A stretch of DNA of 64,000 nucleotides, taken from positions 33,938,501-34,002,500 of the forward strand of contig CM027377.1 of assembly GCA_015680905.1 (NCBI GenBank), in the 5' to 3' direction. The position numbers and the translations under genes are program-made. Below the pieces are notes generated by a model. The model saw only the letters and a program-made list of their open reading frames with translations. It did no database searches and had not been told where the DNA came from. This document shows, piece by piece, positions 1,944 to 58,400 of this stretch. This DNA is from Coptis chinensis. Taxonomy: Eukaryota; Streptophyta; Magnoliopsida; Ranunculales; Ranunculaceae. Numbering within the stretch: position 1 is the stretch's first letter; the number at the start of each line of letters is the position of its first letter.

Positions 1944-4142
1944 TTTTTTTAAAAGATTAAGCTAGGGTTAAGGCAGATCCCCACCTGTTATTATTGCAAA
2001 AGGTTAAACCTTACAAGCCTCCCTACGAGTTAGATCATTAAAAGGAGGAACACAAAAACTCTACCGACAGGCTTTAAGCCTAACATACATAATAACATAC
2101 TAGTCGCCCTGCAATCAAACCTAATAAAGTAAAGATAGTAGTCCTACTTCCTAGTCATGATTTCTTTAACAATCTTAGGATGATCCTTCCTAAGATGAGT
2201 CTCAAAGGCTCATAATTGCAAAAGAAACCTTCCTTGCAAGCACAACACATAAGTGAGTCCCAAAGTATCATCCAAAATTTTTTGGGTGTAGTCCTCAAGA
2301 TTTCTCATCTTTTTGTTTTTTAGTAACGACTTTACTTTCTTCATCATTGCCAGCGTAGGCTCTACTTCTTCTGAATCACGCTCTTGGATCCGCTTGCTTC
2401 TTTTTGGCTTCACAATTATCCATTGATTTTGATCCTTAAAAGACGCTACATACCTTGATGAGCTCTTTTGCAAAACAATTGTTGGGGATACTGCATCCGT
2501 AAAGAACTCAGTCTCATTCTCTAAGAGATCATCATCTTCATCCTCATTTCCAGCAACTACCCCTTCATACATGTTTCGTTCTCTACTATATGGCAGTTGG
2601 TTAATCGGAATACCTCTAGGCTGACTATGGATTGGTGTAACCATATTACTCTTATCTCTCTGGTTACTTGAAGTTCCTCTTTGCGAAAAAGTGTTCACAT
2701 GAGGAATATCCATAGTTTCCCCAATCATATTTACTATAGGAGTTGGTATCTCAGCAGGCACATAAAGTACTAGCTGAAGTCCAATAGAAGGATCAGTTCC
2801 AATCTCATGTACACCAGTATTGAGCTCTTCAATCTCTATTCCATTCCCCTGAGCACCACTACTCTGGCTATTTGGTTCATGTTGGACAGTTGTACCAATG
2901 GGCTGCTCCCGGATCTCTTTGCCTCTATCATTTCTTATGCAACTTGTTCCTGCACCATCAGAGAAGGCATTAGGACGACTCCTAACTCTCCATATTCTTC
3001 TATTAACATCTTCTCCACTTCCATTGCTAGCATACGTTACAGTATTCCTCATAGCATTCTCATAGCTTACATTGGCATTAGGAGTCATTCTTTCATTCTG
3101 CCTTCCTTCCTGTGAACTGGTTACATTGTTAGCATCCAATCTAGTAGATTGTACAGTATTGAGTCTACTCATTCTTCCACTTCTGTTAGTGGTATTCAAC
3201 CTCCTTGAATTTGCATCACCCAAACTTTTGACACTTCTCACATCTTTTTGGGATCCAAGGGTACTCAAACGAGATGATCCATTCATCTCCTGGTGCTAGT
3301 TCAACTGTAAATGAATCTGGAAGCTTGGCAGAAACATTTACCTCAATACATAGTCGAGCATAATCGATTTGTTTCTTTTGCTTTGTAGCTTCATCCTGAC
3401 TGAAAGGAATGCCCACCTTGCTAGCTACGAACCCCAAACCATCATCAGTCCACAACTCCTTAGGGACGTTGTGACATTTAACCCTCACAGGGATTGTTGT
3501 TACCATTGCTCAATGTTTTTCAACACTTCGAGTCCATGGACTTATGATAAAGCAATGACCACCAATAAAGATTGGACCTTCCTCTAAAACTGCTTGATGA
3601 GCTTCAATACTCGAGAATTTGAAGTAGAACAGATCTTTATCCGCAACAATCTCAAATGACCCTTTATCTTTCCATCGCTGTTGAAGGACGTTTTTCACAT
3701 ATGGGAATGAGAGGCGCTGTTCTATAAAGAATCCCACCACATAGTCACTCCATTCATTACATCCTTGCATAATCAAATCCATCGGTACCTGAGTAACACC
3801 ATTCACTTCTGTAAAGTGAAGTGTTTTAGTGTTTTTTTAAGAGCAGATGCTCTATTTTGAAGGAACAAGCTACTCCATGATGATGCAAGAGGGCAATCGG
3901 CAACTAGTGGAAATCCAAATGAGGAAGGTCTTTGCCACGGAGGAGATAAATGGCTCTCATTTGGTGTAGCACCAACGATGGGGTAGGACCAAAGACAAGT
4001 GGGCCGATGAAGTGGAGTTGGATGGCAAGGAAGAGGAGGAAAAGAAGATATACTACTATCCATCGATAGATCGGTCCTAACTCCGAGGTATCCATGTTCT
4101 CGGATGAGAAATCTCACATCCCTTGGCATTTTCCGGATCAAA
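1944..4142 (-). mobile_element. retroposed LINE-ORF1-like (DUF4283) sequence, main part
   Basis: Minus-strand element ending in a poly-A tract (T-run from 1,941). A long coding region (about 4,141 down to 2,144) encodes an N-terminal DUF4283-type domain (motifs VVGFFIEQRLSFPYVKNVLQ, FFIGGHCFIISPW-like) followed by the region leading to a zinc knuckle (IPKRCEKCQKFG). A Ser/Asn-rich, low-complexity tail ends LRKDHPKIVKEIMTRK. This is the usual plan of plant LINE ORF1 and derived DUF4283 genes. No reverse transcriptase lies between the two target-site duplications. The frame changes near 3,805, 3,508 and 3,250, and there is an in-frame stop at 2,210, so the copy is dead. Either a retrocopied DUF4283 mRNA or an internally deleted LINE fits. 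Confidence 0.7.
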
Positions 4143-4170
4143 CACTACACCATAATAGGATATTTGCAAC
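4143..4170 (+). repeat. CACTA left terminal inverted repeat
   Basis: 28 bp starting CACTACACC and ending TTTGCAAC. It pairs with 9,510-9,536 with one extra base and two substitutions. Confidence 0.85.
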
Positions 4171-4194
4171 ACGCACCTTTTTTATTTGCAAATT

Positions 4195-4315
4195 ATTTAG
4201 CGTTAGTAAGTTTCCAACGTTAAATAAGCGTTGGTAATGTTGTAAAACGTGGCTTTATTTGGGTGAATTTCCGGAATTAATTGCTAACGCTTAAAAAGCG
4301 TTGGAGAAGTGTTAC
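4195..4315. repeat. CACTA left subterminal repeats
   Basis: Several copies of an AACGCTTAAAAAGCGTTGG-like palindrome and half-sites (TAGCGTTAG, AACGTTAAATAAGCGTTGG). The same unit recurs many times at 9,250-9,510. In En/Spm such arrays bind the TNPA protein. The binding role here is inferred. Confidence 0.75.
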
Positions 4316-4933
4316 AAACTTAAAAATTTCGCGAACAGAGGGAAACCAAAAATATCGAAATATAAAACATAATTTTTTTTTTTTTTCTCCTCTCTCTCTC
4401 TCTCTCACCGCCGCATTATTTCAAGATCCCTAATTTTCGCACTCCTCAAAATCAAATTCCATATTGACCGAGTAAACAGTCAATCAAAGAAAGAAGAAGA
4501 AGAAAACAAGGAGTTTGGAAGTCCGTTTTGACACAGTCGTATTTTCTTGCAGTTTGAGATAATAATCTTTCATTTTCTTTCTAGTTACTAACTTAATTAA
4601 CTAGTCCTGATTATCGACATTGCAAGAAATGGATGAATTCTATTTTTTTCATTCCTTTCTTAGCGATATTTTGCAAGAAATGGGTTGTTTAGTTAGTTTA
4701 GTTAGTATCTTAGAAATGGATGTTTAGCTAGTGCTTTTCTATACAAAAAACAGGTGGAGGTTTTCATGACTTCTCTACCTTTCCCCTGCTTAAATCCTTG
4801 ATACACACTATATAAAAACATTTTGTTGTAATCTGTTCAATGTTCATTGAAAATGGTTGATGATGTATGAATGATGGGTTCTTGATATGTCCTTTGTTCT
4901 GTTGATAATGGTATTTGTTTGGTCTTCTCTCAG
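4316..4933 (+). other. leader-like stretch before captured ARF exon
   Basis: Contains a (CT)n run at about 4,387-4,406, then T- and A-rich sequence that looks like a plant 5'-UTR and intron. It may be the 5' leader of the captured auxin response factor gene, or sequence that could start a transcript through the captured exons. No frame of note. Confidence 0.3.
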
Positions 4934-5325
4934 GTGACAAGAATAGCTCATATGCTGAACTTTGGCATGCATGTGCCTGGCCTTTTGTTAATGTTCCTCG
5001 TGTTGGGGAGAAGGTTTTCTACTTTCCCCAAGGTCATTTAGAACAGGTATCATTTGCCTATGTACTGTTACATTCATTTTTGTTAATGTTAAAGTTGAAT
5101 GGCGTACAATTCCAACATGATCGTAAGTCTTGAAAGACACCCCATTCATGGGCACATTTAGATTGCAAATAAAATTCATTTTGGTTCTTCTTGGATTAGT
5201 GGAACTTATATGAACTCTGTTTCTTGTAGGTCGAGGCATACACAAATTAAGAATCTAATGGTCAAATTCCAAAACATGATTTACCTTCTAAAATCCTCTG
5301 CAGTGTTATGCATGCTCAACTTATG
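4934..5325 (+). pseudogene. captured auxin response factor (ARF) exons
   Basis: Exon 4,934-5,046 encodes an [20 protein letters not shown] stretch followed by [10 protein letters not shown]. This is the conserved start of ARF proteins just before the B3 DNA-binding domain, where the family has ELWHACAGPL. It is bounded by AG and GT. The second exon, 5,230-5,325, encodes VEAYTN, a stop, then LPSKILC followed by VMHAQL, matching the next ARF segment. Phase and intron placement fit a genomic copy. The Gly of HACAG is changed to Trp, and a stop follows VEAYTN, so it cannot make ARF. ARFs are nuclear transcription factors of auxin signalling. The B3 domain and everything after it are missing. Confidence 0.85.
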
Positions 5326-5443
5326 GTATGCATACTTTTACTTTTCCTGCATATTGAATAATATGCATTGGATACAGTTGTTTTTTCTATACAGAGAGTA
5401 TGGTTCAAGTTTTAACTTTCCTCGTGTATTCAATTTTTTTCAG

Positions 5444-5704
5444 GATTATAGTGAAATGGCCCTAGCCTATAGGCCATCTCTTGCAGATGCAACCTATGAC
5501 TTCAAGTACGGTGTGAGAGCAGTGCAGGTGACCTCTTTTTCTAGTAGTCAGACTCGTTGTAAATCTGATTTTGTGCACACTCTTTAACATTGCTGAAAAT
5601 TGGAAATGTAGGGTGGTGGTAGATCTTCTGCGAGGGAAACCATTGGTAGAGTTGCAGCTGGTGCTGTTGCAAAGATTATTCTTAGAGCATATGCTGGAAC
5701 AGAG
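5444..5704 (+). pseudogene. captured chorismate synthase exons
   Basis: Exon 5,444-5,527 reads DYSEMALAYRPSLADATYDF then KYGVRAVQ. Exon 5,612-5,704 reads [20 protein letters not shown] then [11 protein letters not shown]. Both are hallmark chorismate synthase sequence, including the [13 protein letters not shown]/substrate-binding signature. Splice sites (CAG before, GT after) are kept. The enzyme makes chorismate at the end of the plastid shikimate pathway. Only two internal exons are present, about 60 of some 430 residues. They follow the ARF piece in the same orientation, so a readthrough transcript could splice them together. Confidence 0.9.
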
Positions 5705-5806
5705 GTAGGTTTCTTATGTTTTTAATTGCACGCTAATGTTCATACACCAATATTTTTCCTTTTTGGAGGATTTCTAATTAAAATTTAGCTTGAATTAAGT
5801 CAGTAG

Positions 5807-6068
5807 GCTATGGTAGCTGGTCATTCAGTTTATACTAGTAGTAGTTGTGGGAAAGTTGATAAGGAGGATTCATGGTTTTTAGAGAGTTATCAGAAACATC
5901 CTGGACAGGCTACTACTTTTTTGAGGCATATTAAGGAAGGGGTTGATATTGCGTCGAAAGACGAGGAGGCTTTACTTTTGTTTAGTGGTGGGGAGACTAG
6001 GAAAGATGCTGGTCCTAGAAGTGAGGCTCAGAGTTACTGGGCTGTTGCTGAATCAAAAGACTGGTTTG
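5807..6068 (+). pseudogene. captured DUF218 (YdcF-like) protein exon
   Basis: The frame reads MVAGHSVYTSSSCGKVDKED, then a WFLESYQKHPGQA segment and LLFSGGETRKDAGPRSEAQS. This matches the conserved start of the plant DUF218 domain protein, an uncharacterised family with a SGG(E)T(R) nucleotide-fold-like motif. The exon ends at DWFG followed by GTGAGT, a good splice donor, and is open throughout. It is one exon of a longer gene and lies 100 bp after the chorismate synthase piece, same strand. Confidence 0.8.
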
Positions 6069-6263
6069 GTGAGTTTGTTATTGTTTTTTGAGTTGTTTGA
6101 TTATTACTTGTTAGATATAAGTGCTCTCCACAATTTTCATTGCACCATCCGAGCTGCAGTGCAATGAAAATTACTTTTTGTACTTGAAATCTTGAATATG
6201 ACACGCAAGACACCACAGATATGATCGTCTGTAATTACCTTTATTTACATGTATTTAACATAC

Positions 6264-6445
6264 CTGTGAGACCATCTCACGTAGTGCTTGGGCTAACAAC
6301 TCCCAAAGATGACAACATTCCTTGCTAGACGGATCTGAGCTTCTTCTACCTATAATTGTTATGACCATACGTCCTCCCGGAATTACTTCTTCAGAACGTG
6401 AGTTCAAGAATAGCGTGAAAAACTTTTTAGCTGTATCTCTAGATG
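6264..6445 (-). pseudogene. captured SABATH methyltransferase fragment
   Basis: Minus-strand frame reads [20 protein letters not shown], then [20 protein letters not shown] and ELLAQAL. This is the SABATH (salicylate/jasmonate carboxyl methyltransferase) segment that has FL.SRSEE..PGGRMVLT..GR. It ends at a splice donor (CAG then GTATGTT on the minus strand). It is one partial exon in the opposite orientation to its ARF, chorismate synthase and DUF218 neighbours. The usual family length is about 370 residues, and roughly 60 are here. Confidence 0.8.
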
Positions 6446-6500
6446 TAGGAAACTTATACCCATGAATATGGATTTTCAAAGTCCTCTAAACTATTTTCAG

Positions 6501-6756
6501 GTTGATTGGAATGTTTGAACTCATGTGGCCTTATCTGGACAAGGTGTGTGCTAAAGCTTATAAAATTATTAATCATGCAAGTGTCTTCTAATACTCTTTT
6601 TGATGGGTTAATTGTTGACGTTTGTTGTTTAGGCCATCTGCAAGACTGCAAAGAATATTGCAAAGCCCATTATAGCTGAGCAAATTCCAAAATATAAAAT
6701 TGATTCAGTGGAGTTTGAAGAACTTACTTTGGGCTGCCTGCCTCCAACTTTTCAAG
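6501..6756 (+). pseudogene. captured synaptotagmin (SMP domain) exons
   Basis: Exon 6,501-6,543 encodes FELMWPYLDK. Exon 6,633-6,756 encodes AICKTAKNIAKPIIAEQIPK and YKIDSVEFEELTLGCLPPTF. This is the SMP lipid-transfer domain of plant synaptotagmins (SYT/NTMC2 type 1), ER-plasma membrane tethers. Splice borders are preserved (CAG|, |GTGTGTG, TTTAG|, |GTTTG). There is a small frame disturbance near the start of the first exon. The transmembrane anchor and C2 domains are absent. Confidence 0.85.
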
Positions 6757-6894
6757 GTTTGTGATGCTACTCTTTAATTGGTAGTTTCTGCTGATAAATC
6801 ATCTTATTTGTATTGGGTTTGCAGTAAGTCATCGTGAATGCTAGTTTGGGCTCTCAAATTAGAGTGTGGGTTGAATTAGAATATGGGTTGAATT

Positions 6895-7589
6895 AGGAGT
6901 AAATACCATAAGAGCGTGCACTACCTTAAGATATGATAAAACCACCAAAACCATAGCCCAAAGAAGAGCTTTTGGAAATATCCGACTTGGATTTTGTACC
7001 TCCCCTGCCAATGTACCTGCTTTATCCCAGTAATTTAAGTTCCAAAACATACTATTAAAGTATCCCCTCCAATCCACCTTACTGAAATCAACAACTAGCC
7101 ATTTTTTAGGCCTTATTTGAGGAATTGAAAGAAGTCCCATTACTAAAAATGGCAAAAGCGAAGGCGGACAAGGGAAACAAATGAAACCCAACAATATTGA
7201 GTCCTCGATGATTCAAATATGTCAAAGACACCGCGATGAAGTCCCAACAAAGCCGGAATTCGAAAGCAATCAACCGGTTGAAAATTGTGAAAATAACGTG
7301 TCAAGTAATCCGAAAACAAAATGGGGTAAAGTGCATTATCCGAACTCCATCAACCACTTCCGAATCCTTCCCGAAAACACCAAAAGGGCCCAAACGCTGC
7401 TGAAATTCGAGAACATACCCGCCATTTTTCGGGATAGCTTGTAGCAAGTTCACCAGAACTAAGGCTTCGAACACTCCAAAGTAGAGGAAAAATTAAAAAA
7501 CCAAGCAAAGATAAAAGGGGACCCCTCCCGCCTTGATCAATCTTCAACCCCAAAAGGTCCTCCGGAGACTTCATAGAAGATAAGAGCAA
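6895..7589 (-). pseudogene. captured polyamine uptake transporter (PUT/LAT) fragment
   Basis: Minus strand, intronless. From high to low coordinate: LLSLLGFLIFPLLWSV, then FGPFWCFREGFGSG, ILFPxxLDYL-like and NIVGF-like stretches, then RPKKWLVVDFSKVDWRGYFN and WNLNYWDKAGTLAGEVQNPS. This is the N-terminal half of the amino acid-polyamine permease family of plants (PUT/LAT, a multi-pass membrane transporter), which has few introns. The frame shifts several times between 7,440 and 7,195, so it is dead. Orientation is opposite to the SYT piece before it. Confidence 0.8.
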
Positions 7590-8239
7590 TAAGGGGTAAA
7601 AGTGTTAGTTTTGGATTTGCTTTCATAGTGGCTTCCGGGCATTAGAAGTTCCATTCAGTTCTTCTTCACCCATGAAACAAAACCTCCAAATCAACTAGTA
7701 TAAGCAACACACGGTGAGGATGGACCGTAGGTTGCATATATTGTAGAGGAAAAAGTGTAACGCCAACATCGCCTTTCGCATTTGTTACAAACGAAAAGCT
7801 AATGAAAGCCTACAAATGGTAGTATTAAGGTCTTATCAAGTCCACCGCGTGATGTAAGGGGGTACATCAATTGGTGATGCCCACAACAAAACCACATTAC
7901 AAATGCACAAGTCCTTAAAAGTGGAGTATCTTATCTTGTTGTTAGACTTCATCATCCAATTTAGTCATTACTAATCTTAAACTCCATTTATATGCCCGTT
8001 GATGAAATACTAGTTACTTACTTTTCTTTATCCCGATGCTTTATAAATTTCATTCCATAGGTTTGGGATACAAGGCAACGTACTTGCTGCAATTCTTTTT
8101 GGCGCCATGAAGATTGAAGAGTACATTTCGATATGACTTATCAAATGGATTCGTTGAAACTTTTGGGAATGAGGTAAATCTATTTTATTTCATATTTATG
8201 ATATTACGTTAGTTCTTTTATGCAACTCCTCGGCTTCGT

Positions 8240-9115
8240 ATATGTTTCTTATTGAGGAATGGATAAATTGATTCATGATGACAAGGGCAATGCTACTATT
8301 TCTAATGATGGTACTACTATTATGAAACTTCTTGATGTTGTTCATCTTCTTTGCTAAGATTCTTGTCGATATTGCCAAGTCTCAAGAATCTGAGGTATAC
8401 AATAGAAAACAAATTTACTAATTTTAGTGATTGGCTGACTAAAAGAGTGAAATTTTTATGCTAAAGTTTATATTTATCTTAGAGTGGGTTATGATGATTG
8501 CATTACTACAGCATTTAATAGCTTATACTTTAGAGAAGATAATGACCATTAACAAGGACATTGTCTCAGAAAAAGTTGAGAGGGTATCATTAATAATTGT
8601 ATTGGTTAGGTTTTAGGGATAAATTTGGAATTCACTTGTAATTTTAATGATCGGATTTATTGTCTACAGGTGGGTGATGGAACCACTAGAGTAGTTCTTT
8701 TTGCGGAAGAGTTTTTAAAGGAGGCCAAACTTTTCATTGAGGATGGTGTCCACTCAAAGTCTTATACGTAGTTTTCGAGCTGCTTCCAATTTGGTAAGGA
8801 ATTTGGATCTTTTGGTTTGATTGGACGGATATGTTCATGAGAAATTGTTCTAGAAGCCATGAGTTTGCTACTTGTATTTCAGGTAATTAGCAAAATTAAG
8901 GAACTTGTTGCGAGTATAGAGGGGAAAAGTATGGAAGAAAATAAGAGTTTGTTGGCAAAGTGTGCTGCTACCACACTCTCTTCAAAGCTTTTTTTTTTTT
9001 TTTTAGGAAAAGACCTCACTCTCTTCAAATCTGATTGGTGGTGAAAAAGAATTTTTAACATCTATGGTTGTGGACTCAGTTATTTTAATTGGCAACTATG
9101 ATACATTGTTTATTG
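8240..9115 (+). pseudogene. captured CCT-eta (TCP-1 eta, CCT7) chaperonin exons
   Basis: Three exons of the cytosolic chaperonin eta subunit. 8,240-8,394: [20 protein letters not shown] then [23 protein letters not shown]. 8,670-8,793: [28 protein letters not shown]. 8,883 to about 9,115: ISKIKELVASIEGKSMEENK, LLAKCAATTLSSKL, then GGEKEFLTSMVVDSVILIG. VGDGTT is the ATP-binding motif (usually followed by T/S). Splice sites are intact around exons 2 and 3. A stop, a frame change and a 30-bp insertion at 8,987 break it. The subtype call rests on IHDDKGN..ISNDG plus CAATTLSSKLIGGEKEFF, which are typical of eta. Confidence 0.85.
8987..9016 (-). mobile_element. 30-bp poly-A retroposon stub with 13-bp target duplication
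   Basis: CACTCTCTTCAAA occurs at 8,974-8,986 and again at 9,017-9,029, flanking a T-run plus AGGAAAAGACCT. On the minus strand this reads AGGTCTTTTCCT followed by poly-A. It splits the captured CCT-eta exon, so a severely 5'-truncated retroposition hit the transposon after capture, or hit the donor gene copy before it. Confidence 0.65.
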
Positions 9116-9249
9116 TATTCTTGTATTCATTGTTTATTGTAGGTTTAGCTGGTCTCGCTACAAAATATGATAATTTTTTTTTTATTAGCAACCCATCAGC
9201 AACGGTTTATAACCGTTACAAACGAATTTTAAATTATATTTTTTTAAAT

Positions 9250-9510
9250 TAACTAACAACTTTGCAACGGTCACAAACCGTTGGTAAAATTTTTAACAAA
9301 TTACCAACGCTTAAAAAGCGTTTGTGAAATAAAAAACCGTTGCAAAGGTTTTAAATATGTGTACGAAATAATTATAATAAGCGTTGGAAAGTTCTATTTG
9401 CAACGCTTAATAAGTGTTGGAAATTTCTGTTTGCAACGCTTTTTAAGCGTTGCAAATATTTCCAACGCTTAAAAAGCGTTGCGAAAATTATTAGCAACGC
9501 TTTTTTGCCG
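9250..9510. repeat. CACTA right subterminal repeats
   Basis: At least six copies of the AACGCTT / AAGCGTT unit, several as AACGCTTAAAAAGCGTTGG palindromes, mirroring 4,195-4,315. An ACCGTTGCAAA-type variant appears near 9,340. The array ends directly at the right inverted repeat. Confidence 0.8.
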
Positions 9511-9536
9511 TTGCAAATAGCCTGTTATGTGTAGTG
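9510..9536 (-). repeat. CACTA right terminal inverted repeat
   Basis: Ends TGTTATGTGTAGTG, the inverse of the element start CACTACAC. Followed by AAC. Confidence 0.85.
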
Positions 9537-9746
9537 AACCCCACCATAAAGGGAAGGTTTTGAGTTTGTTCTTATGGCAACCAACGTTCTAAGGATATAA
9601 CTTTACTACTTGAAGAAAAGAAAAATGCGAGATTACTCTTATACCCTTAGAGAAAATGAGGTAAGTTATTTCTAAGTTGGGCGCTTATTTCTCAAGTCCC
9701 CATTGAAGCTAAGATGAGTTTTTGGAACCAATTTCTCTTCTTGTTT
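9537..9746 (-). mobile_element. DUF4283 retrocopy, 5' part, and right target-site duplication
   Basis: Minus-strand sequence running into the CACTA. When the transposon is ignored, this stretch adjoins 4,142 and supplies the 5' end of the retrocopy. The 17-bp duplication at 9,730-9,746 marks its border. The retrocopy without the CACTA is therefore about 2.4 kb. Confidence 0.6.
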
Positions 9747-9903: not shown

Positions 9904-10235
9904 TTATAGTGTTGCCAAGTAGCAGAGCAGTAAGCATCCAGAACAGATTGTAGGCATTTTGACTTGAGTTAAATCTCTTTTACCAAACACAATGAGGTCA
10001 TTTGTATACAACATGCGTGAGAGCCCAACACTTCCTTTGGCAATCTTGATAGGAGTAATAAATCTATTAATCTCAGCTTTTCTAAGCATTTTTGACAAAG
10101 TATCAGTCAGAAGAATGAAGAGGTAAGGGGATAGAGGATCCTTTTGTCTGAGTCCTTTTCTTAGGGGTCAGGAGATGGTTATAAGAGGTGAACCATTAAG
10201 AAGGATCTTATATTTGATAGTAGAAAGGCATAAAT
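9904..10235 (-). mobile_element. LINE reverse transcriptase relic
   Basis: Minus-strand frame reads LLNGSPLITIS, then GLRQKDPLSPYLFILLTDTL and SKMLRKAEINRF, then LSRMLYTNDLIVFGK. This is the fingers/palm part of a plant L1-type LINE reverse transcriptase. The catalytic YADD is degraded to YTND, and stops are present. It lies just upstream, in the minus-strand sense, of the retrocopy insertion site, so an old LINE was probably the target. Confidence 0.8.
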
Positions 10236-13713: not shown

Positions 13714-14659
13714 CATGCGCTTTCGCCAATTTTATAACCAAACATGGTAAAATAGAACAAAAACAATCACCATTTTAAAGTAAAATATTTGTTTATCCAC
13801 ACTTTCTCCAATCATTTTACAACAACGAATACAAAACAAAGAGCATGCTCAAAAAATAAACAGATGAAGTCCTTCCTTTGTCAATTGTCATGTGATGAAG
13901 TTGCAGGAACATTTGGTAGTATAATAAAGTAGCACTTGTGCTAAGTCCATTAGATGAACCTGCAGTCCCAAATGGAACAGTAGTAGTGTACACACCCAGA
14001 GATGTATTGCTCGATTTCCACCTTCCTCTTTCCTGATTGGGGAGCTTCACACTATAAAAACATACATATGCGTCGCCAATCCCACATCACTCCATAACCT
14101 ATTGGTGCATTTTCTCTTCTCTTTGTTGGTCCATTTGTTTGTTTGTTCTTATTCACCACTTGCAAGTATATGTGCCAATTAGACTACCATGTAAATAATG
14201 TGAACAACTAAATGTGCAAATGATGTGTCGGTTTTCTTCACAAAGCCATTGCATCCGTCATTCCCTCCGACGTGATTCTAGACTAATAAAACTTATTATA
14301 AGCTTTTTTTTTTTTTTTTTATTTTGCTTGAGGGTTTAAAAACGTAATATTGAGTGTAGTGCTATGACCTCAAACCCAAAGCTACACCACCAACTAGGCT
14401 CTGTCATAAGGCTAGTTGTCTGACGAAAATTTAATTCAGTAGAAGCACATTATTATAATATGAACTTTGGGCCATAGGCACCTGCTGTCATAAGTAGATA
14501 TTCAAATAATACCTACATCAAATATGAAGAAGTTCAATGACATGCATGTTTTCATGTTAGTAGCGGCATGTGAGATTGTGAGTACATAGACAATGAAGTA
14601 AAGAAGTAAATAACAAATTGAGGATTTTAATAAAGGTAATACAAACAGAGGGATACATT
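13714..14659. other. non-coding stretch, nothing secure
   Basis: A minus-strand frame at 13,817-14,050 (77 codons) has no recognisable domain. Otherwise T-runs and AT-rich sequence. Confidence 0.3.
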
Positions 14660-23127: not shown

Positions 23128-23810
23128 TTGCATTTAATTTCGGTATAAAAGGTAATAATTTGGCAATTAATGTGAAGGGGAAGTCGCGAACAATTGAATA
23201 GTGGCGAATAGTGGCATGTAGTTGATTTTCCATATGAATTTACACATATGTCCTTAAGGTACTATGTAATCTTAAGGGTATAAATAGTAGTAAAATTTGA
23301 AATTACAAAGTAGCCCTTCTTAAAAGCATTGAATAATTTTTTTGAATATTTTATCAAAGGTATTTCATGGTAGAAAAAAGGCTGGTCCAATTTAAATGTC
23401 CATGTTAATTATGGTGTACTCTACTAAATGAGATATGGGTTAAGTATTGTTACCAACAGGCCCCCCCCCCTCGCCCTTAAGATTGCATTTAATTTCGGTA
23501 TAAAAGGTAATAATTTGGCAATTAATGTGAAGGGGAAGTCGCGAACAATTGAATAGTGGCGAATAGTGGCATGTAGTTGATTTTCCATCTAAATTTACAC
23601 ATATGTCCTTAAGGTACTATGTAATCTTAAGGGTATAAATAGTAGTAAAATTTGAAATTACAAAGTAGCCCTTCTTAAAAGCATTGAATAATTTTTTTGA
23701 ATATTTTATCAAAAGTATTTTATGGTAGAAAAAAAGCTGGTCCAATTTAAATGTCCATGTTAATTATGGTGTACTCTACTAAATGAGATATGGGTTAAGT
23801 ATTATTACCA
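23128..23810. repeat. 355-bp direct duplication
   Basis: 23,128-23,455 and 23,483-23,810 are nearly identical, both starting TTGCATTTAATTTCGG and ending GGGTTAAGTATT(G/A)TTACCA. A C-run and 25 bp of odd sequence lie between. The end of each copy equals the first ~20 bp of the fold-back MITE that follows copy 2. Confidence 0.9.
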
Positions 23811-25338: not shown

Positions 25339-27534
25339 TTAAACGATAACCATCTCAAACATCAGGATCTCTAAAATCCCATATATCTCAGCTGATCGCA
25401 AGTGGTTTCCATCCTCAGAATAGAAAGAATGCACTTGGTTTCTCACCTCGATCCAACTACATCCACCAATCTTCTTTAAATTTCTTCCCTTCATCAACTT
25501 CCTAACAGATGAAACATCTTTCCATCTCCCAGCAGAAGCATAAATATTGGATAACAATACGTAACCTGCTGAGTTTTCAGTTGACAATTCCCAAAGCTTC
25601 CAAGCAGTCCTTTCTGCCATCTCCTCATTGTTATAAGTACTACAAGCACTCAACAAAGATGCCCATGCATTAGTTTCTGGTTGGAATGGCATAGCTTTAA
25701 TAAGTTCTTCGGCCTCAGTAAGGCATCCAGATCGAGCCAGCAAATCAACCAGGCATGTGTAGTGTCTGCCCTTTGGCTTTATACCATAAACCCTTTCCAT
25801 TGATTCAAAGTGCCTAAAAGCTTTATCAACAAACCCACAATGAGAACAAGCAAAAAGAACAGCTGAGAATGTGAGCTCAGTAGGAGCCACAGCTGATCTC
25901 CTCTCCATCTCTTCAAATAGATTAAGAGCTTCCTCTGCAAATCCATTTTCTGCAAGTGCTTGTATCATAGCAGTCCAAGAGACTTCATTCTTCTCCTGCA
26001 TTCTCTTAAAAACTTTTCTAGAGCTCTTAATGTCTCCAGATTTGGCATACATATCAGTCAGTGCGGTGCCGATGAAGACCCCATAGTGTATTCCAAGTTT
26101 GATGATCTTACCATGGATATCCTTGCCTTTCTCTAGGGAAGCCAAGCTTGCACAAGCACTTAGGACACTTGAGAAGGTGAAACCATTAGGATTTTCCCCC
26201 GATAAAAGCATCTGGCTAAATACTTCTAACACCTTCTCACAGTACTCGTTCTGTATATAACCCGAGATCATTGTGTTCCAAGAGACAATATTCCTCTTTG
26301 GTAACTGCTCAAACAACTCCTCAGCCTCTTCTAGTTGGCCATTTAGACTATATCCAGAGATCATCGAATTCCATGAAACCACATTTTTCTCTGAAATAAA
26401 GTCAAAAACACGCCGACCATCTTCGTCCTTCCCACATTTACTATACATGTCAATCAGAGGGCTCCCTATAAAAACCTCCCTCTCCATCCCACTTTTTATC
26501 ATATGCCCATGGATATTCATTCCAAGTTTCAAATCCACAAGACTAGCTGATGCACTAATAATGCTGGAAAAACACGAAAGGTTCGGTTTGAACCCTTCAA
26601 GAACCATCTGATTGTATAATTTCAATGCTTCTTCGGCATCATCATTCTGACTGTACCTTGCAATCATTGTACTCCAAGAAACTTCATTTTTCTCTGGCAT
26701 CGTTTCAAAGATCCGCCTCGCTTCTTTCAACTCGCCAATCTCAACATAAACATCTAGAATTGTGGTCCATGAAACAACATCTCTCACCTCCATCTCATCA
26801 AAAACCCTCCTAGCCACTTCAGTCTCCCCCATCCTAAGACTTAATGTTATTATAGAATTACAAACCGATACATTATGCTCAAAGCCATATCTAACTATCA
26901 AACCCAACAAACTCCTTCCACAATCAAAATCACTCAACCCTATACAAGCTTTAATAACACTAGTAAAAGTAACAGCATTTGGACTAATTCCACAATTTAA
27001 CATTTTCCTAAAAACCATCAAACCATCAAAATTCAAACCATTTTTAACAAAACCATTTATCATAGCAGTCCAAGAAACCACATCCCGAAACGGGTTTTTC
27101 TTAAAATACAAAACTGACTCTTCAACTTTCCCATATCTCATTAACCCAGAAACTAAAGTACTCCAAGATACCTCATTTCTTTCAGGCATTTCATCAAACA
27201 AACGACAACCTTCATATACATTACCATCCTGAAACTTAGCAGAAATCATACAGTTCCATGCAACAAGATTAAACCCACCAAATTCTTCAAATATTTTATC
27301 AACTTCAACTGGTTTTTTAAAACTTAAGTACATGTTTAAAAGCTTAACGGCTATATATTTATTTGATGAAATGCCCATTTTGATTAAATGACCATGTATG
27401 TTTCTTCCTTCTTGAATCCAACCTTGGGTTGAACATGTTTTTATAAGGGAGTTACACGTGTCAATATAAGCTTTGAATGATGTTTTTTTGGGGTTGTTAA
27501 GTTGAAATAATAGGCTTGTAACGGTTTTTTTCAT
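25339..27534 (-). CDS. PLS-class pentatricopeptide repeat protein with E domain
   Basis: 731 residues, one uninterrupted exon, as usual for plant PPR genes. Residues 1-30 (MKKTVTSLLFQLNNPKKTSF) are basic and hydroxylated, like an organelle presequence. About 15 P, L and S repeats run from about residue 60 to 600, shown by the recurring [NV]VSW[NST].M[IL][SA]..Y / A..[VL]F..M pattern (for example NVVSWNSMISGYSLNGQLEE). It ends with E1/E2-type motifs (PETNAWASLLSACSTYNNEE, then GYVLLSNIYASAGRWKDVSS, then GGCSWIEV) and about 25 more residues, with no DYW deaminase. Such proteins bind organellar RNA one base per repeat and recruit a DYW partner for C-to-U editing. The target is not predictable here. 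No neighbour is functionally linked. Confidence 0.93.
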   Translation of the reverse strand: MKKTVTSLLFQLNNPKKTSFKAYIDTCNSLIKTCSTQGWIQEGRNIHGHLIKMGISSNKYIAVKLLNMYLSFKKPVEVDKIFEEFGGFNLVAWNCMISAKFQDGNVYEGCRLFDEMPERNEVSWSTLVSGLMRYGKVEESVLYFKKNPFRDVVSWTAMINGFVKNGLNFDGLMVFRKMLNCGISPNAVTFTSVIKACIGLSDFDCGRSLLGLIVRYGFEHNVSVCNSIITLSLRMGETEVARRVFDEMEVRDVVSWTTILDVYVEIGELKEARRIFETMPEKNEVSWSTMIARYSQNDDAEEALKLYNQMVLEGFKPNLSCFSSIISASASLVDLKLGMNIHGHMIKSGMEREVFIGSPLIDMYSKCGKDEDGRRVFDFISEKNVVSWNSMISGYSLNGQLEEAEELFEQLPKRNIVSWNTMISGYIQNEYCEKVLEVFSQMLLSGENPNGFTFSSVLSACASLASLEKGKDIHGKIIKLGIHYGVFIGTALTDMYAKSGDIKSSRKVFKRMQEKNEVSWTAMIQALAENGFAEEALNLFEEMERRSAVAPTELTFSAVLFACSHCGFVDKAFRHFESMERVYGIKPKGRHYTCLVDLLARSGCLTEAEELIKAMPFQPETNAWASLLSACSTYNNEEMAERTAWKLWELSTENSAGYVLLSNIYASAGRWKDVSSVRKLMKGRNLKKIGGCSWIEVRNQVHSFYSEDGNHLRSAEIYGILEILMFEMVIV

Positions 27535-27874: not shown

Positions 27875-29220
27875 TTAGCACTTACCAACAGTGAACCCAA
27901 TTAAGGATCTACCAACATCAAAACTAACACGCATGCCTTGTTGCTGTGTGTTCCCAATAATCGAAGTTCGTTGAGATGTCGTCGCAAATGACAAACAGAA
28001 AACATTTTCGGCAACTTTAGTGAAGTAGTTATTATCCGGTAACTCCAACGTTTTTGTATCAAAAAGAAATGCAACACTTGGAATCCCAGGTGGTCTGGAC
28101 GTCAGTTCATAACAAGTATCATATAAAGAAAAGCCTCTAGGGGGTGGTAACCCCTGGATGCCTTTAATAAATTCATCGCAACACATTGTACACTTCGGGT
28201 CGAAACCGAGTCACTGTCGTCCCGGAATCAACAATAACTCCACCATCTCCACTCTGGTCTAATGCAAATGCTGAGGGAGAAATCGGTAGCATCTGTCCAC
28301 CGACACTTATTCCAGTTAAACCCAAATAATAAAAAGTGTCCATTTTACTATTACGAAGTAATGGAACCGTAATAGCATCGCTGGGTATAGCTAATGAGCC
28401 AAACTCAAGAGTTGAAGCTGAAGTAGCGTATCTATCAACCAAACAATAAGAAAATGAGGGGCTGTTTATTTGTGAAGGAAATGAGAGGGACTTCCCGCCT
28501 AGTCCTAGTAACCCAGCGGACCCCCTAAACAACCCCTGATTCTTGCGACCGCACCCAATAGCAATGTTTCTAGTGGTGGAGTCGCCAAATGTTACCGTTG
28601 TTACGGTTTCATTGCGAAGTCTCCCTCTGTGAGACTGTGAAGGAAATGTCTCCATAATCAACCCGGTAAGCACATGTACTAGTACTAGTGTAACAACCGG
28701 ATGGGTCAAGTTTACTACATTGTTGTGAGTCACACGCGAGTGTTTTATATGAACTTGACATGGATGGATCAAATAATGGATCAGTCTGCGGATAACACGT
28801 ATCACAGGGTGTGCATTGTATCCAAGTAATGTCGCTACCAGTATCAATTGAAGTATACAATTGTTTAGCTGGAGTACCATAGCCGAATCGAGCAAAGTAC
28901 TCACCACTTCCTTGACTCTTTCCTGAAGTAATTGGAATTTCTAGATCCATGGGCTTAAGATCCGAGGTACCATTTCCATGAATGGCTCGGTATATTTTCT
29001 TCTTAAGAAAATTAACACGAGCTACATCACGCTCAAGTCTGTCAAGAGAAATTTCTTTGAGACTTTTAAATTGAGACTTGTAGAGGGCATTTCGAGGCTA
29101 AAGCTTGAGACTGAATGATGAAATGTTACGTTATTGTAGGAGGGTTCGCGAAAGAACAGAAGAAGGCGACAGAAAAAGAAAGAACGTTGTGAATAGAGAT
29201 AGAAATTTTAGTTCCACCAT
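27875..29220 (-). pseudogene. A1-family aspartic protease pseudogene (ASPG1/CND41-like), nearly full length
   Basis: Minus strand, ATG at 29,220. Signal-peptide-like start MVELKFLSLFTTFFLFL, then a propeptide piece (LKEISLDRLERDVARVNFLK) and mature enzyme from GEYFARFGYGTPAKQLY. The first catalytic motif is DTGSDITWIQC (28,850 area) and the second is DSGTTVTRF (28,215 area). The C-terminus is SIIGNTQQQGMRVSFDV. Intronless, as in this plant subgroup. Frame changes near 29,130, 29,080, 28,640 and 28,185 break it, though both active-site Asp motifs survive. Family members are secreted or plastid proteases. Pieces of close relatives lie at 1-92, 30.7-31.7 kb, 35.3-35.9 kb and 36.6-36.7 kb. Confidence 0.9.
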
Positions 29221-35337: not shown

Positions 35338-35930
35338 TTAATAATAATTTAGGACTTTACACAGCATGGTTTGCATACTTGTTTCATAACGAATATCGAG
35401 GAAATCTTCAAACTCTCCACGAGGTGGTAATTGTAACCCTTGGGTGCCTTTAATAAATTCATTGCGCAACATATTGTACACTTGGGGTTGTCGTCCAGGA
35501 ATCAACAATAACTCCACCATCTCCACTCTTGTCTAATGCAAATGCCGAGGGGGAAATCGGTAGCATCTGTCCACCGACACTTATTCCAGTTAAACCCACA
35601 AAATAAAAAGTGTCTATTCTACTATTACGAAGTAATTAATGGAACTGTAATAGCCATCACTCGAGTTGAAGCTGAGGTAGCGTCTCTATCAACCAAACAA
35701 TAAGGAAACGAGGGGATGTTTACTGTTTATTTGTGAAGGAAATGAGAGGGAGCCCCTGCCTAGTCTTAGTAACCCGGCAAACCCCTAAACGACCGGCCCT
35801 GATTATTGCAACTGCCCAATAGCAATGTTTCTAGTGGTGGAGGGGCCAAAAGTTAAGGTTTCCATTACGAAGTCTCTATGCATCTGTGAAGGAATTGTCA
35901 CTCGTCACCTGTGATAGTCCTGGGCGTGGC
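35338..35930 (-). pseudogene. aspartic protease central fragment
   Basis: Minus strand. From high to low coordinate it shows the GDS/FATET region, NQGLF/LGLGG region and a segment matching ISVGGQMLPISPSAFALD, then the VYNMLRNEFIKGTQGL part of the second lobe. Closely related to the 28-kb pseudogene but with many breaks. Both ends are abrupt. Confidence 0.75.
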
Positions 35931-44515: not shown

Positions 44516-47500
44516 GAGCATCTTTAGCAGTGATATCAACTAGAGATTTGGTGTTTTTTCAACTTCAGGAGAACTACATGTTGATGAAAACACCAAAAAA
44601 ACACCAAACCAAACAGCAAATCGACCAATATTTGGTTCCAGGTTTGGTGCTGTATCAAATCACTCACGCGGTTTTGCCAAAACCGCGCGGTTTTTCCAAC
44701 ACCGCGTGGGCTTGGGCTGCTAAATGGGCTTCTATGGCGCGGTTTTGCCAAAACCACGTGCGTTTTTTCTGAAAATTAGAACTGTGGTGCATAGAACTTG
44801 AAAAATTATGAGTTGTGCATAGAAGTTAAGAAATTAACAATTGTGCAATTGAAGAAATTAAGAATTGTAATTCAAAATCGAAAAAATTAAAGAAATTAAA
44901 AACCTATGATTATGATTATGCATTCCAAAATCTATGATTATGATATAATCATTTTAATATCCAAAATAATCCAAAACCTATCATATTACATCAAATTTAT
45001 TTAGCTCTCTTTTTACACCCCTTACCACTCGATCCCTCTCCTCTCTATTTGGACGCTTCAAACCGCCTCTCCTCTAAGTTCCTAATCCGGAGACCGATGA
45101 TCTTCTCTCATGCGCGACGGAGGTTAACTACTTCACTGAAGTTCCTCATATCCTTGATGTTGCTGCGTGTGTACACTTGCCGCATATCCTCATCACTTTT
45201 CGAAGTCTCGGCCATAATGCGCATTTGGGATTGTTGATATGTCCGAGAATAAGCCTCCTCTCTTTCTTGGCTATAATGATACAGGCAGTCCTCATCCCAT
45301 CAAACATAAGAACCCGGTTCTCATATCTTTCCTAACCTCGGCACCAAAATCTAAGAAAATACAGTGTGAGTACATATTATATATATAATGAAGAAGATAA
45401 ATAAAACAATTAAACTCACCATGGTATACTGATCAATATGCGGCTCTAACTCAGAAAAATGAGCATGAGGCACCTCAAGAATGGAAATATAAGTAGGCTC
45501 CCCATCAGGTCCACACACGACAAACATCTGAGGATTACTTGGCGCATTACCGAGAGTCGGCCGATATGCATTCGAGGTTGTGGGTTTGTAAAAGGCTCGT
45601 GGCGGATGAGGAATACGTAGCTCACGTCTCATCCCTTCCAGGCCCACAAACTCGAAGTTGCTAGCCCGACCAACAGGAGGCAACAACGAACCCATGGAGA
45701 CACAGTTCCACCATCTATAATACTGATCACCAGTCTGCTCAACAACAAAAGAAGACGCATCTGGCCAAGGACCACCACTGGCATGAACTTCATGAACTTG
45801 AATTCTACCCCACGACTTTGCATCACTAACATCTGGCATGGGAGCACATGGAACTCCATAACGCCCAAATATCCGCCTCCAACATCCGCCGCCACAAGCA
45901 CCAAACCCGATAAATACGCGTCGCGGCAAAAAAAACAACTCTGTGACGTGACAACACACAAGCATGCTGTACAACTGGATCGTCAAAGGCAGTAGACAAA
46001 CGCCAAGGTCTCCACTCAATAGATGACAATGATCTAATATCAATCTGAGCACGAGCCATACAGATATTATTCCTAATCTGCCCTCTGTTACGAGTCAAGT
46101 GAGGCCCTGACCAACTAGCAAATCTAGGGCGAGTATCAGCAATCATGTCTATGTTAGGACAAAGACATCGAAAGTACTCATAAAACCAAATCTCTAAAAG
46201 TCCCGTGAATCCTGCAATCTGAGGACTTCTACTTCCGAATGTCTGTGAAGCTTTATCTAACGCCGATATCAATGTGGCATATACTGAGCTACCCAGGTCA
46301 TAATCTCTCATAGTATGCAAATCAGATACATAAGCATAATATCCCAGTCGTACCGTAGAATGACCATTGGGAAACAAAACATGCCCAATAAAAAACATAA
46401 AAAAACCTAACATACCGACAAGACCCCTCACTACCCGTAGAATATCAAAAAGCTAACTCCGCTCGTGTATCAGGGATGCAAGAGGGGTTCCATATATGCA
46501 GTCTTAATATGAGATAGCTTAATCCCAGAAGAATCATAAGCATCCGCACCCAAACGAGGAAAACTCATAAGCATAATATCCATATTCTCATAATTTGTAT
46601 GAAAAGGTATCGGTTGGCCTATATCTTTACTCAACCCATAAATCATAGTGAAGTCTAGTGGTGTGAACCCTAACTCCACACAAGGAAAATGAAATGTATG
46701 AGTTCTACTCCACCATCTTTCTACTAAAGCTATGACCACTGCCCAATCAACCTTCTCATAATCCGTATCAATCAAAATACCCAAAGGTGTATACAAAATA
46801 TTATTTCTAATATGTACAAACTCATCCAAACTCCTAATAACCTTCCACCACTCTCTAACACCAAGTAAAGCCGATCTAACTCGGTAGTCAACAACATGCT
46901 GATATTATATAAAAAAAATAATGCGTATAAGATAAATAATTAATTGGTCCAACTCAACTAATTAATATTCAAAATATTTAATCAAAACTAATTAATTACC
47001 CGAGTATTAGCCATCGCACTCGACACGTGTTTTGTATCACGTGTAGAAGACAAAACTTCCATATCAAGTGCTTCTCCAGGTGCAAATTGCTAATCGAAGT
47101 CGTTCATCTGATACTCCAGTACATAGGGATGTCTATCAACCGGCGCGACATCCTCGGGTTCTTCTTCCCCACTGTCTTCTCCCCCACCGTATTCTACTTC
47201 CTCAGGTTCTTCTCCCTCATCGCCAATGTCATCTGTGTACTGCCAATCATCACCGTCGAAAGGTTCAAAAGGATCCATATCAAATTTTAAGAGTTTAGGT
47301 AGGTTTTTGTTTTTTTTTTAACTAAGGAGAGGGTTTTATAATTGTGAGAAGAGGTGAAAGTGACTAAACCGCGTGGCTTTGGAGCTGTTTATATAAGTAG
47401 CAGCTGCACGCGGTTTTGCGAAAAACCGGCTTTAGTTTTTTTTGCAAAACCGCGTAGTTGCTTGGTGTTTTTTTTATGTTGCTCCTAAAGTTGCTTGGTG

Positions 47501-56845: not shown

Positions 56846-57480
56846 CTATTTTGGCTTGACTCCAGCTAAGGTCATCTGAAACAAAACCTTTTGCTCCTCA
56901 CATGTTAGCCTACCCCCATATGTATGACCCCCTAAGTCGGTCTTTGGCGGGTGGTTGTGACGACCACATTCAACACTCACCTTCCACTTATCATCACGAC
57001 CAGGCAAGTAAATCCCCCTAAGCAAGAAGGGACAATCACACTTCTTTGTGCCACTCTTTATCTTTCTTTTCTTTTTCTCATGTTGATCCTTCACTATTTT
57101 CTTATGCCTTTCAAAGTTCACGTCATAGTCAATACTTATTCCAATTTGATTTCCTTCTTTCCAATTTCCAGAACAGCCGTAAAAAGGATATACACACGGC
57201 TAATAATGAGGCCGACACGGTTAAGTGGACCAATAAATCTGTTCACATGTTAGCCTACCCCCATATGTATGACCCCCTAAGTCGGTCTTCGGCGGGTGGT
57301 TGTGACGACCACATTCAACACTCACCTTCCACTTATCATCACGACCAGGCAAGTAAATCCCCCTAAGCAAGAAGGGACAATCACACTTCTTTGTGCCACT
57401 CTTTATCTTTCTTTCCTTTTTCTCATGTTGATCCTTCACTATTTTCTTATGCCTTTCAAAGTTCACGTCATAGTCAATAC
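56846..57480 (-). pseudogene. FAR1/MULE transposase N-terminal fragment, duplicated
   Basis: Minus strand: FERHKKIVKDQHEKKKRKIK, GTKKCDCPFLLRGIYLPGRD, then KWKVSVECGRHNHPPKTDL and GGHTYGGRLTCEEQKVL. C..CPF.LR......W.....CG.HNH is the WRKY/GCM1-type zinc finger at the start of MULE transposases and FAR1/FHY3 relatives. The DDE catalytic part is not present. It exists twice because of the 345-bp duplication at 56,898-57,587. Lies between paralogous genes A and B. Confidence 0.75.
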
Positions 57481-57587
57481 TTATTCCGATTTGATTTCCT
57501 TCTTTCCAATTTCCAGAACAGCCGTAAAAAGGATGTACACACGGCTAATAATGAGGCCGACACGGTTAAGTGGACCAATAAATATGT
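56898..57587. repeat. 345-bp tandem duplication
   Basis: Copy 1 is 56,898-57,242 and copy 2 is 57,243-57,587, nearly identical (about five differences), so recent. Both start TCACATGTTAGCCTACCCCC and end AGTGGACCAATAAAT. They contain the transposase fragment above. Confidence 0.92.
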
Positions 57588-58400
57588 TCCTACTATTTCT
57601 TATATAGTTATATCATCAGCAAAAAAAAAGGTAACATTCGAAACTGACGGTTTCATCAGCTTTTTACCACCTCTCAAAAGTCAAAACCCCCTAATCCTAG
57701 ATTCCATCTCCAAAAAAATTTGTATCAAACTTTTACAATCAATGGATTCTTTCAATAGATACACCTCTCAAAACTACGCACCATCAGCACCCACGTTACC
57801 CGATAATTACGGAACAAGAACCACTTTCTCCACCAACCCAACCTAATTGCAAAGTAACATAGTATACTATATATGTCCTCAATAAAGCCTTCTAAACTGA
57901 CAGACCCCAAAGAATACAACTTCTTAGTTAATAAAAGTGATATGGACTCTTGAGCACAAACTGTGGATAGTTGAATATTCTAGGATCATTCTCTTTACTA
58001 ATGGCATGCCCTTTACATTAATTCTTTAACTAGAGGTGTATCCAGAAGCAAAATTATGATCCATCAAATTTAGTGTTTCTAACCTCAATAATGCAACAAT
58101 CTTTTCCAATCATTTGCATTTTGTTGCCATAACATAATATACAAGTATATTACACAACCGCGATAATTCAACAAAAATATTCTAACAAGTGTATCAGTCA
58201 AATAACTGAGGCCAAAAAAAGAATGCTCAATATTACTCAATTATATACTTTTCTAGAACATACAATGCAAATTAAACCCTAATTAAGAAATTATAATCAA
58301 GAAAACAAATTAATAATGCGAAAAAAGATACTAACCTGTGCAATCATTCTGTGTGAAACCTTTCTTAAGTAGCCTAGATCCGGAAACACATAACACTGAA
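57588..58400 (+). other. spacer with a 34-codon frame
   Basis: 57,742-57,846 reads MDSFNRYTSQNYAPSAPTLP then DNYGTRTTFSTNPT and stops. It looks like an unstructured protein start but is too short to call. The rest is AT-rich. Confidence 0.3.

Follow-up and report, generated by a model that had tools for sequence, protein, structure and literature searches.

A probable Pack-CACTA transposon carrying decayed pieces of seven host genes in Coptis chinensis

In Coptis chinensis (goldthread), a 5.4-kb CACTA-type element at 4143–9536 holds fragments, now degraded, of seven plant genes unrelated to each other, which raises the question of whether a single transposon collected them and whether the resulting chimera amounts to a gene. 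Our analysis of the window (the whole 64-kb stretch of DNA that contains the element) indicates that 4143–9536 is very probably a non-autonomous transposon of the Pack-CACTA type, whose interior was replaced at the DNA level, probably stepwise, by host-gene pieces that have since decayed. The features are collected in Table 1.

The outermost letters of the element are CACTA...TAGTG. When CACTACACCATAATAGGATATTTGCAAC was aligned to the reverse complement of the 9536 end, CACTACACATAACAGGCTATTTGCAAC, the two corresponded across 28 columns, apart from two mismatches and one gap. The local score was 21, against a maximum of 12 among 3000 random 30-mer pairs drawn from the window, which bears out the matching CACTA ends proposed in the first-pass annotation. 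The 3-bp target-site duplication is imperfect, with two of three positions in agreement (AAA/AAC), and therefore an origin of the two ends from different elements is formally possible; given the terminal and subterminal repeats that they have in common, it is unlikely. A search of the window with the 5′-end pattern recovered the 5′ end plus four chance-level matches and missed the 3′ end, which is one base short; the 3′-end pattern recovered its own end, along with two further sites at 3 mismatches each. The exact motif CACTACAC occurs four times in the window, at the two element ends and at 14354 and 25757. Both of the latter lie on the minus strand, and no partner end for either was found within the 64 kb.

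Next to the ends we observed 18-bp palindromes of the type CAACGCTTNNNAAGCGTTG, arranged in two arrays that enclose the gene pieces, as had been claimed. The 5′ array has two of them, at 4215 (2 mismatches) and 4285 (0–1 mismatches), and the 3′ array has seven, five with 0–2 mismatches and those at 9265 and 9495 with 3. A scan of the whole interior found no palindrome between the arrays at up to 4 mismatches, and the rest of the 64 kb gave weak matches only, the best three at 3 mismatches. The density of half-sites reaches its window peak in the 3′ array, for which the folding z was −13.5. Five single half-sites occur in the element interior.

Table 1. Features of the element and its flanks (window coordinates)
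Feature	Position	Strand	Details
5′ flanking trinucleotide AAA	4140–4142		3′ flank 9537–9539 is AAC
5′ terminal inverted repeat	4143–4170	+	CACTACACCATAATAGGATATTTGCAAC
5′ subterminal array	4208–4316	+	two palindromic repeats; palindrome scan
Sequence preceding the ARF exon (CT-rich stretch; AT-rich sequence)	4317–4933	+	its ORFs gave no above-cut-off Pfam match
Gene model IFM89_017877 (310 aa)	4840–8771	+	nine exons, stop codon included; 8/8 introns GT–AG
IFM89_017877, exons 1–5	4840–4855, 4934–5046, 5444–5527, 5612–5704, 5807–6063	+
IFM89_017877, exons 6–9	6501–6543, 6633–6756, 8483–8583, 8670–8771	+
ARF fragment	4934–5325	+	exons 4934–5046, 5230–5325; intron 5047–5229; PDB match
Chorismate synthase (CS) fragment	5444–5704	+	exons 5444–5527, 5612–5704; intron 5528–5611; Pfam, PDB
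DUF218 (C57A10.07-like) exon	5804–6068	+	protein matches; donor GTGAG at 6069
SABATH carboxyl methyltransferase fragment	6258–6485	−	Methyltransf_7 match about 6264–6425
Synaptotagmin/SMP (SYT) fragment	6501–6756	+	exons 6501–6543 (frameshifted, by eye), 6633–6756
Polyamine transporter (At3g19553 type) fragment	6928–7673	−	residues 1–250 of Coptis IFM89_014757
CCT-eta fragment	8259–9107	+	pieces 8259–8394, 8670–8793, 8883–8989, about 9029–9107
3′ subterminal array	9196–9519	+	seven palindromic repeats; palindrome scan, strong folding
3′ terminal inverted repeat	9510–9536	−	CACTACACATAACAGGCTATTTGCAAC (read on minus)

Pfam, PDB and protein matches upheld all seven donors named in the first-pass annotation (ARF, CS, DUF218, SABATH, SYT, polyamine transporter and CCT-eta), as well as their split into five on the plus strand and two, SABATH and the transporter, on the minus. 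Matches were obtained for the pieces of ARF (PDB E 1e-19), CS (Pfam 3.8e-18, PDB 8e-17) and SABATH (Pfam 2e-16, PDB 6e-17). The DUF218 and SYT pieces alone matched no Pfam family, and their assignment rests on protein matches: 80 of 89 residues of the former are identical to Nelumbo P0004, a PF02698-bearing protein, and 38 of 42 of the latter to P0003, whose record carries the domains PF17047 and PF25669 and no name, and which we take to be a synaptotagmin.

The transporter piece stayed below the Pfam cut-off for AA_permease (20.8 vs 24.6 bits), and many of its close matches carry the name polyamine transporter. Its identity was 215/241 to Coptis IFM89_014757 and 192/240 to Thalictrum P0130, the two proteins to which it was aligned in this manner, and no intron was seen in the alignment to IFM89_014757. 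The CCT-eta piece (Pfam 1.5e-33, with T-complex eta as the top PDB matches) is identical to Coptis IFM89_025577 at 129 of 145 residues and to Vitis P0242 at 121 of 145; it reaches about 9107, past a poly-T insertion between its last two parts. For these two donors, the closest protein among the matches listed was Coptis' own. No own Coptis gene for ARF, CS, DUF218, SABATH or SYT appeared among the matches listed, the protein searches covering the best 120 of 7897, 2538 and 7701 matches within candidate sets that were themselves capped.

Parental introns and splice sites have been kept in the captured pieces, meaning that capture occurred at the DNA level, as was first proposed. About 1.2 kb of the interior (4317–4933 and 7674–8258) has no assigned source; the former stretch could belong to the 5′ UTR/intron of ARF, or else be native 5′ sequence of the element. 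Scars of former ends, which a fusion of elements could have left where one captured piece meets the next, were looked for with the end patterns and the palindrome, and none turned up.

No transposase domain was detected by Pfam in the 46 ORFs of at least 45 aa that overlap the element, an absence that fits only a non-autonomous CACTA member. What we found, i.e., CACTA ends around host coding DNA with no transposase, is the arrangement that defines a Pack-CACTA. Rfam returned nothing in the window. Weak, sub-cut-off Pfam matches to DUF6326, Alpha-amyl_C and VGPC1_C in three ORFs were taken for chance.

The pieces have accumulated different kinds of damage. The transporter piece has 12 frameshifts, as positioned by alignment, and the CCT-eta piece has two relative to IFM89_025577, besides the poly-T insertion. 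The second ARF exon contains an in-frame TAA, and the DUF218 exon, read from its parental acceptor at 5804, has TAG as its first codon. The CS and DUF218 pieces together carry no lesion in 148 codons, or one if this TAG is counted; at the transporter's rate, such a shortfall has P = 0.0008 (none) or 0.007 (one). When the transporter was compared with the ARF, CS, DUF218 and SYT pieces pooled, P was 0.04 (with the ARF and SYT lesions counted by eye), and when it was compared with CCT-eta, P was 0.10, or 0.19 with the insertion counted. An uneven lesion load between pieces is hence suggestive only.

A deposited Coptis protein, IFM89_017877 (P0001, 310 residues), was reproduced exactly by nine GT–AG-joined exons within the element; UniRef labels it "chorismate synthase". 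Its open frame requires that the second ARF exon (with the TAA) be skipped, that the DUF218 acceptor be moved by +3 nt, and that the donor be moved from 6069 to 6064. If splicing used the parental sites, stop codons would interrupt the ARF–CS–DUF218–SYT chain. The spliced chimeric transcript suggested by the first-pass annotation is thus possible on paper, and deposited as a model, but not through the parental sites; likewise, the junction it placed at 5807 is a usable alternative acceptor, whereas the parental one is 5804. A function of the chimeric gene is unlikely.

The same CS–DUF218 join is present in the predicted protein of a second Coptis gene model, IFM89_015103 (P0002), which lies on another contig, 114.4 Mb long as compared with 90.0 Mb for that of IFM89_017877. 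This protein and the window have five non-consensus DUF218 residues in common, of which each of 117 other homologues has at most two. The five residues could stem from a common Coptis parent gene, and the join is the stronger link between the two loci. By eye, the second CS exon and the beginning of DUF218 are read differently in IFM89_015103. Neither gene model is named in the main text of a Coptis root-rot study (PMC10101010).

Could the element have arisen differently? Its ends might derive from two neighboring insertions of one family, making it a composite that still sits at its birthplace and never moved as a unit. The flanks AAA and AAC do differ, and the fusion of neighboring elements is a published model for Pack-CACTAs, as outlined in the text of two reports (PMC8903248, PMC13317346). 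However, one mutation can explain the flanks, neither internal ends nor, with as many as 4 mismatches allowed, internal palindromes were present, and the CS–DUF218 join recurs at a second locus; moreover, seven donors of different families would hardly have lain within 5 kb of each other. We consider such a composite unlikely. That a Helitron, a Pack-MULE or repair filler gathered the pieces, the CACTA ends being incidental, appears very improbable. Helitrons insert between A and T and lack inverted ends, and Pack-MULEs have target-site duplications of 8–11 bp. Here the element sits between A and A, and its CACTA...TAGTG ends are inverted, which speaks against a Helitron; a comparison of the 9-bp flanks, CGGATCAAA and AACCCCACC, revealed no duplication of the Mu type, which speaks against a Pack-MULE. 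The captured pieces also occupy most of the space as far as the 3′ array. In favor of such a route, Helitrons and MULEs, too, collect gene pieces (PMC2773423).

As to the product, one may argue that the chimera became a working gene, whose 310-residue protein is made and important, since a nine-exon open frame with GT–AG junctions has been deposited and the CS and DUF218 pieces are less damaged than the transporter (0 or 1 lesion per 148 codons). Yet that frame depends on exon skipping and on a displaced DUF218 acceptor and donor, the sister model IFM89_015103 reads differently at the two places noted above, every fragment is a small portion of its parent, and the IFM89_017877 entry represents one sequence only. 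We find a working gene highly implausible. Unlikely as well is the notion that the element is a live exon mixer, in which a plus-strand transcript combines in-frame ARF, CS and DUF218 pieces with antisense SABATH and transporter sequences, and so could give rise to small RNAs acting on the parent genes or to a novel chimeric protein, with mixtures that differ between copies.

For the Pack-CACTA transposon that we favor, the terminal CACTA repeats and the subterminal palindromes would be the sites for a transposase made elsewhere, probably TNPA/TNPD-like, that moves the element in trans. Capture may have proceeded via tandem insertion and aberrant excision, or via gap repair, and the pieces were probably acquired in steps. 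Afterwards, they would have decayed as pseudogenes, leaving a chimera presumably devoid of any function. The order of capture is testable, because the pieces seem to have decayed unevenly and CS–DUF218 recurs at a second locus.

CACTA capture of host DNA is covered by the papers cited here for soybean, Ipomoea, wheat, maize, rice, Arabidopsis and Chenopodium. The first-pass claim that capture from many donors by CACTA elements is rare was too strong, in view of the cases documented in soybean, Ipomoea, wheat and maize (PMC1947982, PMC5105172, PMC4290129, PMC8903248). The 5.7-kb Tgm-Express1 of soybean is likewise a CACTA element packed with exons and introns of unrelated host genes, with splice sites kept; it has five donors as opposed to seven, and its chimeric transcripts, from a host gene promoter, were seen by RT-PCR, whereas Coptis offers a predicted gene model only (PMC1947982). 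Pack-CACTAs, as described in PMC8903248, are similarly non-autonomous, with CACTA ends around host coding DNA and several loci per element, the highest number of distinct loci being found in maize; the Coptis element differs in its host, which is new, and in its own end and subterminal sequences. The Tpn1 family of Ipomoea comprises non-autonomous En/Spm-type elements whose interior, between 28-bp ends, has given way to host gene sequence; they too have subterminal repeats, which are tandem repeats of 122 and 104 bp instead of 18-bp palindromes (PMC5105172). On wheat chromosome 3B, 140 CACTA capture events are reported, some giving chimeric genes; there, 17 captured genes may reflect exon shuffling, the parental genes numbering 36 in total, compared with seven donors in one element here (PMC4290129). 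Seven exceeds every single-element count considered here from these papers.

The Coptis element is a rich example of the already known Pack-CACTA kind: within Ranunculales, a clear, high-count case of a CACTA element that has collected host exons, introns included. It also illustrates a route by which such elements enter gene catalogues, IFM89_017877 being a chorismate synthase in UniRef and yet a chain of exon pieces inside what is very probably a transposon.

The element begins with CACTACACCATAATAGG and ends with CCTGTTATGTGTAGTG, and its terminal inverted repeats are identical in 25 of 28 alignment columns; this alignment scores 21, whereas 3000 pairs of 30-mers drawn at random from the window reached 12 at best. 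Two copies of a subterminal palindrome of the pattern CAACGCTTNNNAAGCGTTG lie inside the 5' end and seven inside the 3' end; of these nine, seven have at most two mismatches and two have three. A pattern scan of the window found no palindrome between the two arrays at up to four mismatches, and the best occurrences elsewhere in the 64 kb were three places with three mismatches each. Half-site density reached its whole-window maximum at the 3' array, whose folding z was -13.5 against 100 shuffles. The flanking trinucleotides, AAA and AAC, form an imperfect target-site duplication. Because the inverted repeats match and palindromes are present at each end, we assign both ends to one family, in agreement with the CACTA ends and palindrome arrays described in the first-pass annotation.

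Conceptual peptides identified the cargo as pieces of seven unrelated plant genes, and PDB, Pfam and whole-protein matches bear out the earlier count of donors and their strands, five plus and two minus. Alone, the DUF218 and synaptotagmin pieces matched no Pfam family and the transporter piece gave a Pfam match below cut-off; consequently, these three identities rest on whole-protein matches.

Location and evidence for the element, its cargo and other features of the window
Feature	Position	Strand	Observation
CACTA-type element	4143-9536		
ARF piece		plus	PDB ARF1, E 1e-19
Chorismate synthase piece		plus	Pfam 3.8e-18; PDB 8e-17
DUF218 piece		plus	80/89 residues identical to Nelumbo protein
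Synaptotagmin/SMP piece		plus	38/42 residues identical to P0003, an unnamed protein with PF17047 and PF25669
CCT-eta piece		plus	Pfam 1.5e-33; best PDB matches T-complex eta
SABATH methyltransferase piece		minus	Pfam 2e-16; PDB salicylate methyltransferase 6e-17
Polyamine transporter piece, At3g19553 type		minus	Protein matches
T run between last two CCT-eta pieces	8970-9032		T run, then AGGAAAAG, with a 20-bp repeat on either side (ACCACACTCTCTTCAAAGCT / ACCTCACTCTCTTCAAATCT, 90% alike)
LINE-like debris on each flank of element	2210-3836; 9907-10167	minus	Left, DUF4283 domain in two ORFs; right, reverse transcriptase match below cut-off; order along minus strand at odds with a single LINE
Direct repeat, ~400 bp	478-883; 36724-37128		Copies separated by 36 kb; similarity 90 and 92% in the two pieces
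Tandem duplications, two	23128-23810; 56898-57589		Unit lengths 355 and 345 bp; 98-99% identity in each
731-aa ORF	25339-27534	minus	PPR repeats and E motif; apparently ordinary PPR gene
Two copies	28147-28599; 35433-35860		85-95% alike piecewise; ~7.26 kb apart
ORF overlapping first of these copies	28173-28907	minus	TAXi domains matched
Plant mobile domain ORF	45826-46431	minus	PF10536 match in one ORF
ORF overlapping the PF10536 ORF	45351-46052		No match

Parental introns with GT-AG sites are retained in the ARF, chorismate synthase, synaptotagmin and CCT-eta pieces, meaning, as the first-pass annotation proposed, that capture was from DNA and not from spliced RNA. The transporter piece starts at its parent's first methionine, and alignment to that parent revealed no intron.

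Leaving aside the gene model within the element, the top matches among the proteins listed were Coptis' own for both the transporter piece (IFM89_014757, 215/241 aligned residues identical, versus 192/240 for Thalictrum) and the CCT-eta piece (IFM89_025577, 129/145, versus 121/145 for Vitis). The former carries 12 alignment-placed frameshifts, the latter two frameshifts and a poly-T insertion; the T run with its 20-bp repeat looks like a truncated retroposon tail with a target duplication. The chorismate synthase and DUF218 pieces had no lesion in 148 codons (P = 0.0008 at the transporter's rate); counting the DUF218 TAG raises this to one lesion (P = 0.007). This lighter damage may mean that the two pieces were captured later, or may be a matter of chance given the small number of fragments; the difference does not demonstrate constraint.

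The junction of chorismate synthase with DUF218, in that order, recurs in a second Coptis gene model, IFM89_015103 (156 residues). This second model and the transporter and CCT-eta parents lie on contigs of 114,376,183 nt, the model within the element on one of 89,969,453 nt. Five non-consensus DUF218 residues are common to IFM89_015103 and the window; among 117 other homologues, 78 lack all five, 30 have a single one and 9 have two, which is the maximum. Since a shared Coptis parent could explain these residues, it is the join that marks IFM89_015103 as the same chimera. By eye, its second chorismate synthase exon is read differently from the window, and this predicted protein probably represents a diverged copy.

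A Pfam scan of all 46 ORFs of at least 45 residues overlapping the element matched no transposase. Judging from the family, the transposase of an autonomous relative would bind the ends and subterminal palindromes and mobilise the element. Capture in steps, with amplification afterwards, is favoured by the presence of cargo on both strands, by the uneven decay of the pieces and by the second chorismate synthase-DUF218 locus. End-pattern and palindrome scans of the element found no internal end scars between captured pieces. The Rubin and Levy mechanism is reportedly one of gap repair. Capture models, in the excerpts consulted, comprise this mechanism (as cited in PMC8978399) and one in which adjacent insertions fuse following aberrant excision (PMC8903248; PMC13317346).

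According to excerpts of the literature compared, Tpn1 elements have interiors replaced by host sequence (PMC5105172), wheat 3B shows 140 CACTA capture events (PMC4290129), among Pack-TYPE elements, maize Pack-CACTAs carry the largest number of distinct loci (PMC8903248), one 22-Mb maize region holds five CACTAs with gene fragments (PMC2773423), and soybean Tgm-Express1, of 5.7 kb, draws on five donors and has been shown to yield chimeric transcripts (PMC1947982). The Coptis element therefore belongs to a kind already known, and the supposed rarity of many-donor CACTA elements is overstated: capture is documented in all these plants, but seven donors exceed the five of Tgm-Express1 and every other single-element count in those excerpts. 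Among the papers listed for the Coptis chinensis genome and CACTA, titles and opening abstract lines mention no such element in Coptis, and the word CACTA is absent from the main text of the Coptis genome papers examined.

The top protein match of the chimeric query was IFM89_017877, a Coptis chinensis model of 310 residues named "chorismate synthase" in UniRef. Nine GT-AG-joined window exons, from 4840-4855 to 8670-8771, reproduce it exactly, an identity that points to Coptis chinensis as the source of the window, so the element has already been deposited as a gene. The chimera of ARF, chorismate synthase, DUF218 and synaptotagmin envisaged in the first-pass annotation has an open predicted counterpart, but splicing at the parental sites meets stops at residues 44 (ARF exon 2), 129 (the first DUF218 codon), 218 (the synaptotagmin junction) and 245. 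The model stays open by skipping ARF exon 2, using an acceptor at 5807 and shifting the DUF218 donor to 6064. The first CCT piece is absent from the model as well, and its exon 8483-8583 has no family match above cut-off. Such choices are gene-finder behaviour and no evidence of transcription. Automated annotation, as an excerpt of the maize study puts it, would list most or all transposon-borne fragments as genes (PMC2773423). IFM89_017877 (4840-8771), a model assembled from exon pieces carried by a transposon, deserves correction as an annotation error.
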